Positions 26,507-38,048 of a stretch of DNA of 38,048 nucleotides are shown here, piece by piece (positions within the stretch are counted from its first letter, which is position 1; the number at the start of each line of letters is the position of its first letter). The position numbers and the translations under genes are program-made. Source of the stretch: an uncultured Alphaproteobacteria bacterium (GTDB lineage Bacteria > Pseudomonadota > Alphaproteobacteria > CAAHEQ01 > UBA3637); assembly GCA_949292205.1 (NCBI GenBank), contig CASEYR010000013.1, positions 2,293-40,340 of the forward strand, written 5' to 3'. The notes under the pieces were generated by a model. It saw nothing but the letters and a program-made list of their open reading frames with translations, did not search any database and had not been told where the DNA came from.

Positions 26507-27511
26507 TCAAGGGGTACCTTTTACCATATCCGTATGATCAATACTAACTGAATCCCCATTTTCTTCAACTTCCTTTTTCCCTTGGTTCAGTTGCTCATCT
26601 AAACTGGGAGAATCTTTAAATCTTTGCCCCCAACGATCAATATATGAAACCAACAAGCGTTGCCAATCTTCAAAATGAACCTTTTCTTTTTTAATCAATT
26701 GAGAAAACTGAGATCGAATATTACGACAATCAGAGTTTAACGAAAAAACAAAAAACATTTCCGGACCAAACAAAGCCCGTTCACTTAACTCAATATCCTG
26801 ATTCATCTTAAAACGCCGAGCCTCAGCCTCAGCCGCATAAGGACTGGACAACATATAGTCAGCCTCACCTGTCAACAAAAGCCGAAAAGCCTCACGAGCA
26901 TTCGGAACCTGTTTGATCGTTAAATCCTTTGACAACCCTTTATACATTAGCTCATAAAAATATTCATCTTGTCTAACCACACCCTTCATTCCGATTAAAT
27001 CCTCAAATCGTTCAATTGGCTTTTCCTTTCCTTTTAAAAAAACGGCAACAATTGCATTTTGAAAAAAACTGGGTGTCACAAAACTATTCCCCATCTGTCT
27101 AATGTGAGGATCATAATAAGCTCCGGCAAATACATCTATCTCTCCTTGAGCTAAAGCCTTTAAAGCTTTCTCATATGAAGGGAAACCGACAGGCTGGACG
27201 AACAATCCATTAGCTTCGGCAATATTTCTAAACAACGCAACGGCAAATCCATTACCAAAATACCGATCTGACATTCCAAAGCGCCCTTCTGAAAAATCAA
27301 CCCAACCGAACGGAGGATTTGTTTCAAACGAAGCGACACGGATCGGATTACCTTCACCGCCACATTGCCGATCATTTATTTTTTTATTAGATGTTTTTTC
27401 TTGAGATACAGCTTTCTCACCAATATAAGATACCTCTTTATCGGCAGCCCATACCGTCTGAAAACAAAGCATCATCATGCCGACAACACAAACCATCAAT
27501 AATTGTTTCAT
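26507..27511 (-). CDS. Periplasmic solute-binding protein (SBP family 3), coupled to a histidine kinase
   Basis: A 334-residue protein with a signal peptide (cleavage near VWAAD). A family 3 solute-binding fold follows ([71 protein letters not shown]). Before the fold is a polar 30-residue stretch, and after it a charged tail of about 35 residues. It resembles amino-acid-binding or sensor-type SBPs. No ABC permease or ATPase is nearby. Its ATG overlaps the stop of the kinase gene as ATGA, so the two are translated together; a role as the kinase's ligand sensor is inference. Confidence 0.85.
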
Positions 27512-29583
27512 AATTTTTTCCTTTTTACTTTTAAAACACGCTCTTTAGGGAAAGTTAAAATCAACCGAGTTCCTTTTCCATATTCACTCTCCAAACACAC
27601 ACGCCCTTGTTGTAGCTCCATCAATCTTTTGATTAAGACAAGCCCCAATCCAGTTCCTTTATGCTTACGAGTCATAACGTTTTCAACTTGGCTAAAGGGT
27701 TGAAACAAAGTATCTATTTTATCTTTCTGGATCCCGACCCCATTATCACTGACAACAATCTGCATCTCTTTCCGATGGGTTAAAGAAACATCAATATCAA
27801 TAATGCCCCCCTCCTGAGTAAACTTAATGGAATTAGACAGAATATTTAAAAATATTTGCTTTAAAGAACGCTCATCAATCAACAAATCCGCATCTGGACA
27901 ATGTGTTTGCCATTGAATAATCCTTTTATCCGCTCCCGGATAGCGTTTAACGACATTAATAACATTCTCAATAAAAGCCCCGATAGGAACATGAGTATCC
28001 ACCAATTTTTGATGTCCCCCCTCCACACTTGATAAATCCAAAATATCATTAATTAAAGACAACAGATATTTCCCACTGGAATAAACATATTGAACATACT
28101 CCTTATATTGTGGCGGAAGTGGACCAAAGACCTCTGTTTCCATAGCTTCGGAAAATCCCAATATTGCATTTAACGGAGTCCTCAATTCATGACTCATATT
28201 AGCCAGAAAATCTGATTTAGCTTTATTTGCGCTTTCCGCAGCATCACGAGCCTCTGTCAGATCCTGAATAAAGACATTCAACTCATCCGCCTGCTTCTGC
28301 ATGATTTTTTTATTATTCTCCAGCTCATGAATTTGTAATCGCAACCGCTCTTCATATTGATGAATTGCGATTTGTGCTCGCCGTCTCAAGCGAATAGCAG
28401 CGATATTTTCACAAATTTCGGACAACAACTGCTGCAAGCGGAACACCAAGCTATCTGAAAAGAACCCAACTGTATGACCATATAAACTGACAACTCCCTC
28501 CACTTTTCCCTCAATAATAATAGGGAAGGAATAGGTAGATAAAACCGGTTTTTTATTTCGTCTATAAAACGATTCTTTATAGTACTGAATATCTCTAATA
28601 TCACTGAAGCCCATAGCCTTTTGAGTCATGAAAGCTTTAACAACGGCAATATCTTTCAATGCAGGATCCTCCAGATCAATAACTTGACGCACCCCCGGAA
28701 AAGCTTGATCATCTCCGACAACAAAGTTAACATGCAATTTTTTATCCCTATAATTTAAAAAGAAGGCAGTCTTTAAACCATAGATTCCGATAACCTCATT
28801 CAACATTTGTTTAAATAAATCATATTCATCATCATTATCATTAAAATGATGTAAAATCATCAGCACACGAAAAACTGTTTGATAGTACTTTTCCAATTCA
28901 ATATTTCTTGCTTCTGCGGAAAAATCTTGAAACACCCATACAATACCCTTTTTAGGAGATCCCGCTTTCAGGCAAAAAGCCGTTATTTGATAAAGAATAC
29001 GCCGACCATCATATGTTGTCATTAAGTTTTGTGTCATCCATATTTTATTACGCAATAAAACAGTCCGCCCTTTGTCAAAAACCTTTTCTATTTCATCTCG
29101 ATTCGGGAATAATTCCGTAATTGCCCGACCCACAACATGCTCTGGTTTTTGATTTAAGAAAGGACGCATCATATCGCCACATAAAATGACCCGCTCGGCA
29201 CGAGTAACAACCACACCAACAGGTAATCGCATCAAGATAGAAAAATATCGCTGAACATCCGCAGACAACTTCAAGTTTTCAACTCGCAACTCCTCCGTTG
29301 TCATCTGTAACAATTCTTCAATATCTTTGCCACGAAAAAATCCAATCAACCGGACAAAAGCAACTAAAACAACACCCAATAACACAATACTTCCATAGAG
29401 AAAAAAAGTATGTGATAATGACTCATATACAAAGGAAACCAAAGGCGTATTAACCCCTAAAAAACGCAAGCTCCATTCATAACTTAACAAAACCGAAATA
29501 AAAAACAATATCGTGAAAATAAATCCGGATATAATCCAGTTTTTATAAAATTTCAAATAATACAACAACCCAAAGGAATACAT
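27508..29583 (-). CDS. Membrane hybrid-sensing histidine kinase (PAS, GAF, HisKA, HATPase)
   Basis: A 691-residue sensor kinase. Two membrane segments near 13-35 and 60-85 flank a short periplasmic loop. Then come a PAS domain (about 105-225), a GAF-like domain (about 245-385), a coiled coil (about 390-450), HisKA with the phospho-acceptor His465 in SHELRTPLN, and HATPase_c with [16 protein letters not shown] and GTGLGL. The histidine box resembles PleC/DivJ-type kinases, which signal to DivK, but that pairing is not shown. The start is ATG 29583, with GGAGG five bases before it; an earlier ATG at 29595 lacks a comparable site. There is no receiver domain, and its response regulator is not adjacent. 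Confidence 0.93.
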
Positions 29584-29661
29584 CTCAGCCTCCATTTTCT
29601 TTCAGCATACTGCAAAAGGAATAAAAAGGAAATAAAAAAATAACAAAATACGGCTTTATAG

Positions 29662-33913: not shown

Positions 33914-34810
33914 TTAATCTTTTTTTTCAAGCAATCGCATAACTTTTGCAACCGTTTGCCCCATTTCAGAAGGGCTTTCAACCCAGATAGCACCGGCCGA
34001 AACCAAAGCATCTTTTTTATTGGCGATAATATCCGCAGGATTAAGTGTTTTTGTCCCTAGTAGAGGAGTCCTAGACAAAGGAGGAATTGTCTGCCCCGGA
34101 ATATAGACAATCAAAGGCTTTTTTCGACGAGAGCGTTTATAAACAATTGCCAATTCCATTTCCAAATCACCGGAAAGCTGGCCGATAACTAGAACAGCTT
34201 TTGTTTGTTTATCGGACAGCATTGCCTCCCAAATCGGGACAAAGGACGTCCCGACAATCGGAGCCGCCCCCAAAGCAACGCAAGTTGATACGCCCATATT
34301 TTGCTCAGCCAACTGCTGAACCGCCTCATAAATCAGCGAGCTAGATCGCCCGATCATACCGATATTTCCCTTTGGGAACAAATGCGCCGGAATGTTACCG
34401 GCCAAGCAATCTCCGACTCGAACAATCCCCGGAGAAGAAGGACCAATCAAAGTCACGCCATATTTACAAGCCAACGCAACCATCCGCAAGGCATCATGTA
34501 AAGGAACATGTTCAACAGTACAAATAACCAACGGGATTCTGGCACGCACAGCCTCTTCAACATCTCCCAAAGCACGTGCCGGAGATGAAAAAATAACGCT
34601 GACGCATGGCTTTGTTTTACGAACAGCTTCCTGAACCGTTCTAAAAACGGGAATATCCTGATACAAGTTGATATTTTTATCCCGACTTGTTCCGGCGACG
34701 ATATGGCTTCCATAGGCCAAAGCCAATTCTGTATGAGCCGATCCCATTTCGCTGGTAATTCCTTGACACAAGATCGGTGTATTCCGAGTCGGAAACTTAA
34801 GAGAGTTCAT
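33914..34810 (-). CDS. Succinyl-CoA synthetase alpha-like protein lacking the phospho-histidine
   Basis: The 298-residue protein aligns along its length with SucD (LCQGITSEMGSAHTELALAYG, LIGPSSPGIV, GRSSSLIYEA). In SucD the reaction passes through a phospho-His (RMGHAGA). An ungapped match of 37 residues from 238 puts Leu250 at that place (RTPLLGT). The conserved Glu in GEIGG is Gln211 (GQLSG), and the GGDPI motif is GAAPI. It therefore cannot use the standard phospho-enzyme chemistry. The frame is intact and the CoA-fold core is kept, so this looks like a repurposed or structural paralogue rather than decay. Its ATG overlaps the stop of the beta-like gene as ATGA, and both follow divK. Confidence 0.88.
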   Translation of the reverse strand: MNSLKFPTRNTPILCQGITSEMGSAHTELALAYGSHIVAGTSRDKNINLYQDIPVFRTVQEAVRKTKPCVSVIFSSPARALGDVEEAVRARIPLVICTVEHVPLHDALRMVALACKYGVTLIGPSSPGIVRVGDCLAGNIPAHLFPKGNIGMIGRSSSLIYEAVQQLAEQNMGVSTCVALGAAPIVGTSFVPIWEAMLSDKQTKAVLVIGQLSGDLEMELAIVYKRSRRKKPLIVYIPGQTIPPLSRTPLLGTKTLNPADIIANKKDALVSAGAIWVESPSEMGQTVAKVMRLLEKKD

Positions 34811-35964
34811 GTCAGCTCCTTTACCTGTTTAATAATTTCAAGAACGGCTTCATCCATTTTCTGAACGACGGTAAAAGGCAACCGAGATTCAAACAACAAC
34901 CGTCGTCCGATATGAGCATTTGTTCCGTCCATTCGAACAACGACCGGCAATCCTGCCAAGATTTCATGAGCGGCTGATAACAAACCCTGAACAATAACAT
35001 CACATCGCGTAATACCACCAAAGATATTAACCAAAACCCCGTCAATATCGGGATCCGATAAGGCTAATTTCAAAGCTCTTGCCACAGCATCTCGGGACGG
35101 CTCTGTTCCGACATCTAATAAGCAAGCCACCTGTCCGCCATGTTGATGAATCAAATCAATCGTCGCCTGTCCCAATCCGATACCATTCACCAAACAAGCG
35201 ATATTTCCCCCCAATTTTGTGTATCGAAACTGATGCCGTTTTGCGATAGCCTCCCGCTCTTGTCCGACTTCAATTTCACGCATAGCCTCAATTTCAGGAA
35301 AGCGGAAGAGAGAGTCCTCATAAAAAACAATCCGTCCGTCCAACACAACAAACCCCAAGGCCGTTTCCAAAATCGGATCAAATTCAACGGCAATAGCACC
35401 ATATCCCTCAAATAACTGCATCAATTTTTTCAACAAATCGGTCATATTAAAAGCGCGTTTATCTTTTAATTTCAAATCACGAAGTACACGTTGAACAATC
35501 AACCGATTTAGCTTATATTCTGGCAACTCATACCGATGAACGATATTACCCGCCGAAATAACCGTCAAGACCAACTGTTGCGTTAAAAAATCAATTCGCA
35601 AAGATAGTTTATACTCACTTTGCCCTAGACAAGCTTCCTCTACATAGACACGCCGAACCTCTTGTCCCGCCCCCTCTTTTTCAGGTACGATTAAATTATT
35701 TCCCAACATTCGCTCTGCCAAACCGGCAACCATTTGGGGCGAATTTGCCCAACAAATACCCGCCAAATCAGACTGCCCCTGTCCGGCGAAATATCCGGCC
35801 GTCCGACTCCCGACGGTTACCTGAGCTTTCACGACCCAAGCGCTACCACCTATTTTTTCGGCAGTGGCCTGAGCTTCCTCGGGCGTATAGGCAACCCCTC
35901 CTTTTAATAAAGGAACACCATACTTGCGAAATAACTGCTTAACTTGATATTCCTTGATAACCAT
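34807..35964 (-). CDS. Succinyl-CoA synthetase beta-like protein with an altered nucleotide site
   Basis: The 385-residue protein aligns with SucC: IKEYQVKQLFRKYGVP at the start, an ATP-grasp domain, and a CoA-ligase half with GNIACLVNGIGLGQATIDL and VNIFGGITRCDVI. Lys46 is kept, but the ATP loop HAGGRGKAGG of SucC reads TVGSRTAGYF here. The TEGG segment is lost, and EINPL is EFDPI. LDVGGG is LDVGTE. Nucleotide handling is thus probably changed or absent. AGGAG precedes the ATG. It starts 8 bases after divK and overlaps the alpha-like gene by four bases, so the three genes form one operon. Confidence 0.87.
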   Translation of the reverse strand: MVIKEYQVKQLFRKYGVPLLKGGVAYTPEEAQATAEKIGGSAWVVKAQVTVGSRTAGYFAGQGQSDLAGICWANSPQMVAGLAERMLGNNLIVPEKEGAGQEVRRVYVEEACLGQSEYKLSLRIDFLTQQLVLTVISAGNIVHRYELPEYKLNRLIVQRVLRDLKLKDKRAFNMTDLLKKLMQLFEGYGAIAVEFDPILETALGFVVLDGRIVFYEDSLFRFPEIEAMREIEVGQEREAIAKRHQFRYTKLGGNIACLVNGIGLGQATIDLIHQHGGQVACLLDVGTEPSRDAVARALKLALSDPDIDGVLVNIFGGITRCDVIVQGLLSAAHEILAGLPVVVRMDGTNAHIGRRLLFESRLPFTVVQKMDEAVLEIIKQVKELT

Positions 35965-35972
35965 CCGCTCTC

Positions 35973-36338
35973 CTATTGGGGCAAATTTTCATCAATTGTC
36001 TTAAAAAAAGTCGGGATTGAAATCGGCTTGGATAAATAAGCATCGCAACCGGCATCTAGGATTCTATCCTCATCTCCCTTCATAGCGAAAGCCGACACGG
36101 CAACAATTTTAGTATTTGAAATTGCCGGTGTTTTTCGGATCATTTGAGTCGCTGCTATACCTGATACTTCCGGCATTTGAATATCCATTAAAATCAGATC
36201 AGGCTTTGTTGCCACTGCTGTTTCCAAAGCCTTTGCTCCCTCCGAACATTCCACAACGGTATGTCCCTTTGCCTTTAATAAATCCGAAAACAAACGCATA
36301 TTCAGATCATTATCTTCAACAATTAAAATGGTTGCCAT
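35973..36338 (-). CDS. divK: Single-domain response regulator DivK
   Basis: DivK is a receiver-only regulator that, when phosphorylated by DivJ and dephosphorylated by PleC, controls the CckA/CtrA cell-cycle pathway in Alphaproteobacteria. The 121-residue protein matches it closely: VEDNDLNMRLFSDLLKAKGH, phospho-acceptor Asp52 in LILMDIQMPEVSG, VAVSAFAMKGDEDRI, GCDAYLSKPIS. Acidic residues Glu8/Asp9 and the KP motif are in place. AAAGGA precedes the ATG. It is normally followed by pleD; here it heads an operon with the SucCD-like pair. Confidence 0.92.
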   Translation of the reverse strand: MATILIVEDNDLNMRLFSDLLKAKGHTVVECSEGAKALETAVATKPDLILMDIQMPEVSGIAATQMIRKTPAISNTKIVAVSAFAMKGDEDRILDAGCDAYLSKPISIPTFFKTIDENLPQ

Positions 36339-36724: not shown

Positions 36725-38048
36725 CTAGAAATAATATCGGCATTTCGGGACGTGGGATCCGCCACATGCCTCACACGTTTCTTGTGTATTTAAAGCTGGT
36801 GACGCGACATTCTTCGGACACAGATTACAATAGCTTCCCTTTTTAAACCGCTTATCTACACCGGTGCAAGCCTCTGAGCACGTTCCATCACTACCAACAT
36901 CAATCGCACTCGCTGTATCACATGGGTAACAACGACCAGACTCACTCTGAAATCCATCACAAGGGACATTCAAGATACAATAATCGCGCCCATTTTTAAC
37001 CCGATTAGAACATTTTCCACACGTTCCACTACGACCAACATCAATCCCCTCCGGCGTATCACACGGGTAACAACGACCATACTTATCCTGCAATCCATTC
37101 TCACAAACTGATTTTAAATTGCAATAACCGGAACTATTCATTTCTCTTATTGGGTTGCCCGACGCATCCTTACATTTATCACACTCTGTTTTATTAGCAT
37201 AAATCCCCTCCGGCGTATCACATGGGTAACATCCGCCCCAATAGGACCAAAATCCGTCACATGTATTGAATACACAATAGTTACGCCCATTTTTAACCCG
37301 ATTGGGACATTTTTCTTCACATAGTCCACTACGACCAACATCAATCCCCCCCGGCGTATCACACGGGTAACAATCTCCTTTATAATCCTGAAATCCATCA
37401 CAATTCGCCAAAACACAAGATGTACCTACAAGTTTTCGTATTCCTAAGCAATTATCACAGCTCCCATTATTATCAACAAAAATAGCCTTCTTTGTATCAC
37501 AAGCATGACAACTGCCATCATATTCTCGACGAACACCATCGCAATCTTTTAATGCACAAGAACCATCATAATCTATACGATTTGAACAAGAATCTAAACA
37601 TAACTGAATATCTTGAATATCAGATCCTCCTACCGCGGAATATCCATCATCGCAAGAAAAACATAACCCTCTGTCTGTACAAAACACATTATTTTCCGGA
37701 GCGGTTGGATCAAATTCCTCGGGTGGATTTCCTTCTCCACCATCTCCATCACTGCCAGAACTACTCGCTAAATCATTCGCAAACGCAAACAACACATCAT
37801 TCGTTTCGGCTGTGCAATCTACATCGTCGGCGACAACAACATCACCGACCAACTCCTCTATTACCATCGGTAACGGCGAATCTATCACTTGATTACAAAC
37901 ACCCTGCTCGATTCCTTTGACCGTAATCGTAAATTGTCCGGCATTCCCATTATAATTATCTGCCGTTTCTATCGCATATCCTTGCACCGTATTAACGCCA
38001 TATTCAGACAAGTTAATTGAATGTCCCAATAACCGTTGTTGACTGGCG
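36725..38048 (-). CDS. Cysteine-repeat protein with a pilin-like N-terminal part (5' end outside the window)
   Basis: The frame is open to the right window edge with no stop, so the start lies outside; at least 440 residues are visible. The first part (EYGVNTVQGYAIETADNYNG, then FTITVKGIEQGVCNQVI) resembles the globular part of type IVb pilins. After an acidic Ser/Gly/Asp linker come five to six cysteine-rich repeats of about 45-50 residues built on CDGF...GxCYPCDTPEGIDVGRSGxC...NRVKNGRxYC. The C-terminus is CGGSHVPKCRYYF. The repeats are nearly identical in DNA in places, which implies recent duplication. The paired Cys suggest disulfide-rich modules outside the cell. A surface adhesin or minor pilin is inferred. 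No membrane anchor is visible in this part. Confidence 0.75.
   Translation of the reverse strand, partial: ASQQRLLGHSINLSEYGVNTVQGYAIETADNYNGNAGQFTITVKGIEQGVCNQVIDSPLPMVIEELVGDVVVADDVDCTAETNDVLFAFANDLASSSGSDGDGGEGNPPEEFDPTAPENNVFCTDRGLCFSCDDGYSAVGGSDIQDIQLCLDSCSNRIDYDGSCALKDCDGVRREYDGSCHACDTKKAIFVDNNGSCDNCLGIRKLVGTSCVLANCDGFQDYKGDCYPCDTPGGIDVGRSGLCEEKCPNRVKNGRNYCVFNTCDGFWSYWGGCYPCDTPEGIYANKTECDKCKDASGNPIREMNSSGYCNLKSVCENGLQDKYGRCYPCDTPEGIDVGRSGTCGKCSNRVKNGRDYCILNVPCDGFQSESGRCYPCDTASAIDVGSDGTCSEACTGVDKRFKKGSYCNLCPKNVASPALNTQETCEACGGSHVPKCRYYF

Follow-up and report, generated by a model that had tools for sequence, protein, structure and literature searches.

How metabolism and growth provide input into the CtrA phosphorelay is a long-standing question in the Alphaproteobacteria. 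The locus described in the present study raises this question in a concrete form, as the genes for two proteins resembling both subunits of succinyl-CoA synthetase (SCS), without the catalytic histidine, lie directly behind divK. Why has such a pair been kept, and what does its position beside a gene of the phosphorelay mean?

Gene arrangement and loss of catalytic residues

The window, i.e. the whole stretch of 38,048 nucleotides that was analysed, carries in the order divK, beta, alpha three genes of an apparent operon, all on the minus strand. The first, divK (35973-36338), encodes a single-domain response regulator of 121 aa with Response_reg as the sole Pfam domain (89.8 bits) and 54% identity over 112 aa to C. 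crescentus DivK. The beta-like subunit (34807-35964, minus strand), a SucC homologue of 385 aa, contains the Pfam domains ATP-grasp_2 and Ligase_CoA, and the alpha-like subunit (33914-34810, minus strand), a SucD homologue of 298 aa, contains CoA_binding, Succ_CoA_lig and Ligase_CoA; both were assigned from ORF coordinates, Pfam, NCBIfam, alignment and AlphaFold2. The beta and alpha frames share 4 bases (ATGA), and 8 bases separate the divK stop from the beta start. The sequence-only reading of this DNA had described the positions, the full-length frames, the overlap and the distance from divK exactly.

Two further genes of the minus strand are of interest as context. A PAS-HisKA-HATPase sensor kinase without a receiver (27508-29595; Pfam HisKA 3.1e-22, HATPase_c 2.1e-27), which we take to be DivJ/PleC-like, is encoded approximately 6.4 kb from divK and, judged by this context only, is a possible candidate for the DivK kinase. 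The other gene (36725-38029) encodes a Cys-rich protein of 434 aa in which CDTPEGIDVGRSGTC-like units recur and for which Pfam gave no match. Perfect CtrA boxes (TTAA-N7-TTAA) number zero in the 38-kb window versus 2.3 expected by chance, and control of the operon through such boxes was rejected.

Both subunits have lost sites of the SCS reaction. In the alpha-like subunit, Leu250 aligns with the phospho-histidine His247 of E. coli SucD and Gln211 with Glu209, the partner of this histidine; moreover, Ser125-Ser126 replaces Asn-Cys of PNCPG, and RSSSLIYE replaces RSGTLTYE. In the beta-like subunit, the ATP-grasp loop HAGGRGKAGG has become TVGSRTAGYF. The E. coli SucCD sequences served as a guide for numbering (from Met1), and canonical alphaproteobacterial proteins were also aligned. 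The alignment bore out Leu250, Gln211 and the altered beta loop as the sequence-only reading had listed them. The alpha alignment had also been called ungapped, which is not strictly the case, as the offset to E. coli goes from +2 to +3 between residues 217 and 231; this change leaves the assignment of Leu250 and Gln211 untouched.

The best NCBIfam match of both subunits is succinate-CoA ligase, with scores well under the curated cut-offs (240.7 versus 353.2 bits for alpha and 299.3 versus 370 bits for beta). Compared with the features that define SCS, the alpha GHAGA loop has no phospho-histidine, with Leu250 in its place in the window, the HAGGRGKAGG loop of beta is absent from the window and its GxRG is gone or changed throughout the order, and the fold of both subunits is predicted to be kept. 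Two related families were considered and rejected, namely FdrA/AllF, for which the window protein scores 30 bits against a PRK06091 cut-off of 433, and the Pat family, since a GNAT domain is missing and only CoA_binding, Succ_CoA_lig, Ligase_CoA and ATP-grasp domains are found with Pfam.

Conservation across the order

No other Ligase_CoA protein was found anywhere in the host genome (1.32 Mb, 96% complete). A separate canonical sucCD, the possibility of which had been raised from the sequence, is thus rejected for this genome, and the SucCD-like pair is its sole Ligase_CoA pair. A genome reduced to 1.3 Mb might suggest that the two genes are decaying pseudogenes or that they stem from an assembly artefact. 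However, 41 of the order's 43 genomes have an alpha homologue, including all 27 of those of high quality, the frames are open in 41/43, and the same losses recur in independent genomes. Between close genomes, dN/dS is far below 1, with most values for alpha and beta at 0.01-0.07 and most for chpT at 0.09-0.26, although some genome pairs are too similar or dS-saturated and uninformative alone. Pseudogenes and assembly error are rejected by conservation, open frames and dN/dS, and this explanation can be practically dismissed.

The phospho-histidine is missing in every one of the 37 order genomes checked, where its column holds Leu (17), Asn (9), Phe (4), Ile (3), Val (2) or Met (2), and the Glu column of the same number of genomes holds Gln (14), Lys (10), Glu (10), Asp (2) or Leu (1). 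Because it is common to all of these genomes and accompanied by strong purifying selection, the loss of the histidine goes far beyond chance or sequencing error. With regard to whether the replacements themselves are conserved, the loss of His holds throughout, and the specific Leu and Gln singled out by the sequence-only reading vary; with six residue types at the His column and five at the Glu column, Leu and Gln as new functional residues were rejected. The genera that have changed least (g5, g7, g8 and g9) carry YMGNIGAI for RMGHAGAI and keep the Glu.

Outside the order, the best-scoring relatives from the class keep GHxGA, and the canonical ones MGHAGA, with the exception of a small sister order. 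A concatenated tree unites the order with the sister order in a single clade (support 100), the stem of which measures 0.72 substitutions/site. In the sister order, the alpha-like protein of G207 is His-less (MGNISAI) and has no chpT directly downstream. In another genome, G080 (L165:8022-9922), the reverse decay was observed: alpha keeps its His (MGHMGAI), and the beta of 350 aa has no Pfam ATP-grasp match. A small, divergently oriented lipoprotein-like gene (DARREAGQL / DQRREAGRI) lies upstream of the pair in G207 (L162:10395-11228) and in g5, g8 and g9 (cluster c6), and its occurrence in the order and the sister order suggests ancestral synteny.

Entry enzymes of the TCA cycle likewise went undetected. 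The 2-oxoglutarate dehydrogenase E1 component (PF16870) was not found in 40/40 order genomes, nor was citrate synthase in any of the 11 order genomes tested, with the same searches positive in controls; a role of the SucCD-like pair in the TCA cycle is therefore unlikely. These results also bear on the explanation that the pair is a residual or altered SCS with another phosphate acceptor or direct transfer. The kept fold and most of the substrate-side motifs would fit such an enzyme, as would the MGHMGAI of the G080 protein and the basal genera in which Glu is kept and only His has been replaced, by Asn. However, six different residues at the site leave no conserved acceptor, the ATP-grasp loop is lost, the G080 beta is without a detectable ATP-grasp domain, and no feeding pathway was found, and we consider residual SCS activity very improbable.

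Linkage to the genes of the CtrA phosphorelay

In the relatives, the gene directly downstream of alpha encodes a protein of approximately 180 aa, which is ChpT, the phosphotransferase of the CtrA relay. PF10090 (HPTransfase) matches part of the set, several of the matches being marginal or below the cut-off, and the phospho-His motif His12-Asp13-Leu14 (HDL) is invariant in an alignment of 17 members. Among 31 order genomes besides that of the window, in which some neighbourhoods are limited by contig breaks, chpT lies directly downstream of the pair in 26 of the 27 chpT-bearing genomes examined, representing 11 genera (24 genomes by clustering, together with G021 and with G014, which is split by a contig end). 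It is unlinked to the pair in G030 and missing in G001, G002, G003 and G006. The spacing between alpha and chpT lies between -46 and +11 bases, with -4 as a frequent value. The genes that flank beta-alpha-chpT differ among genera both upstream and downstream, and therefore the block is conserved amid shuffled surroundings. In contrast to the order, none of 15 class outgroups having both genes shows sucD-chpT adjacency. Moreover, ctrA comes after chpT in G013, and in G009 the two genes are convergent. Genes for a CheY-like receiver and a CheR methyltransferase were observed after chpT in g5, g8 and g9 (L040, L043, L044 and related loci). Since the His-less pair of G207 has no chpT directly behind it, the loss of catalysis may predate the link to chpT.

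The window's genus differs from this arrangement. divK directly precedes the pair in G000, G001 and G002, with G003 cut by a contig end, whereas in other genera it lies elsewhere in the genome, away from the pair, which in most of them is adjoined by chpT. The divK linkage emphasized by the sequence-only reading thus stands for three genomes of the window's genus and is rejected as a general rule; the linkage of the pair to the relay is broader than that reading supposed, chpT is the stronger link, and divK is the exception.

In G000-G003 and G006, i.e. the window's genus and one other genus, both ChpT and the CckA-like HDFNN kinase are missing, whereas this kinase is present in every tested order genome having ChpT; the CckA query was validated by a 55% match in the outgroup G041. 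Despite these losses, the same genomes have kept the SucCD-like pair and a CtrA with an intact receiver. The CtrA of the window's genus has an intact phospho-acceptor region and shares 70% identity with that of G013 and 55% with C. crescentus CtrA. In G006, the pair is adjoined by neither chpT nor divK. The survival of the pair where both ChpT and CckA are missing means that ChpT cannot be its sole route of action.

Retained sites and predicted structures

The AlphaFold2 model of the alpha-like subunit (pLDDT 91.3) has SCS alpha chains as its top PDB matches (E 2.9e-30, TM ~0.86), and that of the beta-like subunit (pLDDT 85.8, pTM 0.61) has SCS beta chains (E 2e-32, TM 0.71-0.80). Residues 241-250 of alpha, the former histidine loop, are among the low-confidence stretches of the model.

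Throughout the order, the His, the ATP-grasp loop and PNCPG (now PSSPG or PAAPG) are lost, and many genomes also lack the Glu and some of the CoA site. For the CoA or nucleotide sensor that the sequence-only reading had suggested as a possible role, the CoA site is thus only partly conserved and the nucleotide loop is lost, whereas the central phosphate/carboxylate region is the best preserved in both subunits. The best-kept part is the C-terminal Ligase_CoA domain of beta, with the motifs GNIACLVNGxGLGxAT, LLDVGTEPTKE, VNIFGGxTRCD and VVRMDGTNA, which read GNIACLVNGxGLG, LLDVGTEP and VNIFGGITRCD in the window. In alpha, the Gln-Gly of the CoA loop and R155 and S156 at the start of a helix are kept, and a new Ser is found at 157/158. 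Judging from SCS structures, the kept parts of both Ligase_CoA domains presumably surround the central phosphate/carboxylate site and the subunit interface, and for this reason we propose that the pair may retain a ligand pocket.

These retained sites may be read in two other ways. The SucCD scaffold might have been repurposed as a new enzyme that acts on a carboxylate, phosphate or CoA substrate and needs neither His nor ATP, with the chpT/divK operon being incidental or co-regulatory. The ring of best-kept sites around the central region (alpha R155, S156 and S158; beta N260 and G316-G317) would suit this explanation, and FdrA (AllF), a SucD/Ligase_CoA relative without SCS activity that is apparently an oxamate-producing enzyme, provides a precedent (PMC8550087). 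Although a new enzyme appears unlikely to us, we give it some weight because the fold has gained a different catalytic role in FdrA. Against it, the recurrent partners across genera are only ChpT, the CheY-like regulator, CheR, CtrA and DivK, with no metabolic gene among them, and neither the Glu partner nor the CoA loop is constant from genus to genus, which is unusual in a conserved active site.

Alternatively, the pair might be a structural adaptor or chaperone without ligand or metabolite input, which for example stabilizes ChpT or places it at the pole. Such a function would agree with the translational coupling to chpT and with a fold that is kept while the nucleotide and CoA motifs decay. 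However, conservation is among the highest at the motifs that line the pocket of each subunit, beyond the needs of a pure scaffold, and the pair outlives ChpT in two genera, which makes a pure adaptor rather improbable.

Proposed role of the pair

In the present study, the pair is found to be of full-length SucCD type without the catalytic apparatus, conserved throughout the order under purifying selection, and linked to genes of the CtrA relay. The sequence-only reading is supported in part. The recruitment of a metabolic enzyme linked to cell-cycle control agrees well with this comparative evidence: no other sucCD and no TCA entry enzymes were found, the His is lost, selection is evident and an operon is shared with ChpT in 11 genera. 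The divK link is restricted to the window's genus. Herein, we suggest that a dead SucCD-type heterodimer has been retained to serve the CtrA/DivK phosphorelay as a regulatory partner, perhaps sensing a ligand, a reading to which we give about even credence. First, the heterodimer would have lost the ability to carry out the ATP-dependent ligase reaction that proceeds through phospho-His. Second, it would be co-translated with ChpT in most genera; in the window's genus, where CckA and ChpT are gone, the gene pair lies behind divK instead. Third, the heterodimer might dock on the phosphotransfer protein or a receiver and thereby alter its phosphotransfer or availability. The trigger may be a metabolite, either a small anion or of CoA type, that sits in the retained central pocket. 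We infer from conservation and linkage that the subunits may associate, bind ChpT or DivK, sense a metabolite and modulate CtrA output; the operon linkage may also mean co-expression only. A more specific version, in which the pair binds ChpT, or DivK where ChpT has been lost, as the metabolite sensor of a CoA- or anion-dependent cell-cycle checkpoint in an order without a TCA cycle, is possible but doubtful.

Throughout this order, a central metabolic enzyme has outlasted its pathway and its catalytic residues and stays coupled to the phosphotransferase of the CtrA relay. Its forms grade naturally from nearly canonical ones, in which only His has changed to Asn, to ones that have diverged strongly. 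The locus also offers a specific putative link at the protein level, from a metabolite-binding fold to ChpT/DivK. If the proposed role is true, the pair would belong to the rare instances in which an entire enzyme of several subunits was turned into a signalling component. No report of a SucCD relative linked to ChpT/DivK, or of a pseudo-SCS in the cell cycle, was found in a search that most subscription journals lay outside. In addition, annotation pipelines may credit the genomes of this order with a succinyl-CoA synthetase they lack.

Comparison with known systems

The pair shares with SucCD (TIGR01019, PRK00696) the two subunits, the beta-alpha gene order, full-length homology and the predicted folds. 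Unlike SucCD, it has no phospho-His, the conserved Glu partner is missing in most genera, the ATP-grasp loop is lost, the scores fall under the curated cut-offs, and the linkage is to chpT or divK rather than to TCA genes. FdrA/AllF (PRK06091) resembles it as a SucD/Ligase_CoA relative devoid of SCS activity (PMC8550087) but is one protein of 555 aa in allantoin catabolism. From the CckA-ChpT-CtrA / DivK phosphorelay, the linked genes encode ChpT with its invariant His, CtrA with an intact receiver and DivK, whereas known relays have no SucCD-like component. None of CitA, KidO and GdhZ is known to be operon-linked to ChpT or DivK.

These three proteins are likewise relatives of metabolic enzymes that act on the CtrA/FtsZ cell-cycle network: Caulobacter CitA exerts a control over CtrA that does not depend on its catalysis, and KidO and GdhZ influence division (PMC7083601). 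They belong to other enzyme families, and CitA retains enzymatic activity. In Pat/PatZ, a dead acyl-CoA-synthetase domain without the catalytic His serves as an acetyl-CoA sensor (PMC8556138). It is similar to the pair as an NDP-forming acyl-CoA synthetase relative that became a regulatory acyl-CoA-binding unit, but it is fused to an acetyltransferase, whereas the pair is a separate SucCD type without GNAT and linked to a phosphorelay. Thus, KidO and GdhZ, to which the sequence-only reading had compared the locus, are fair precedents, and CitA and Pat/PatZ are closer ones.
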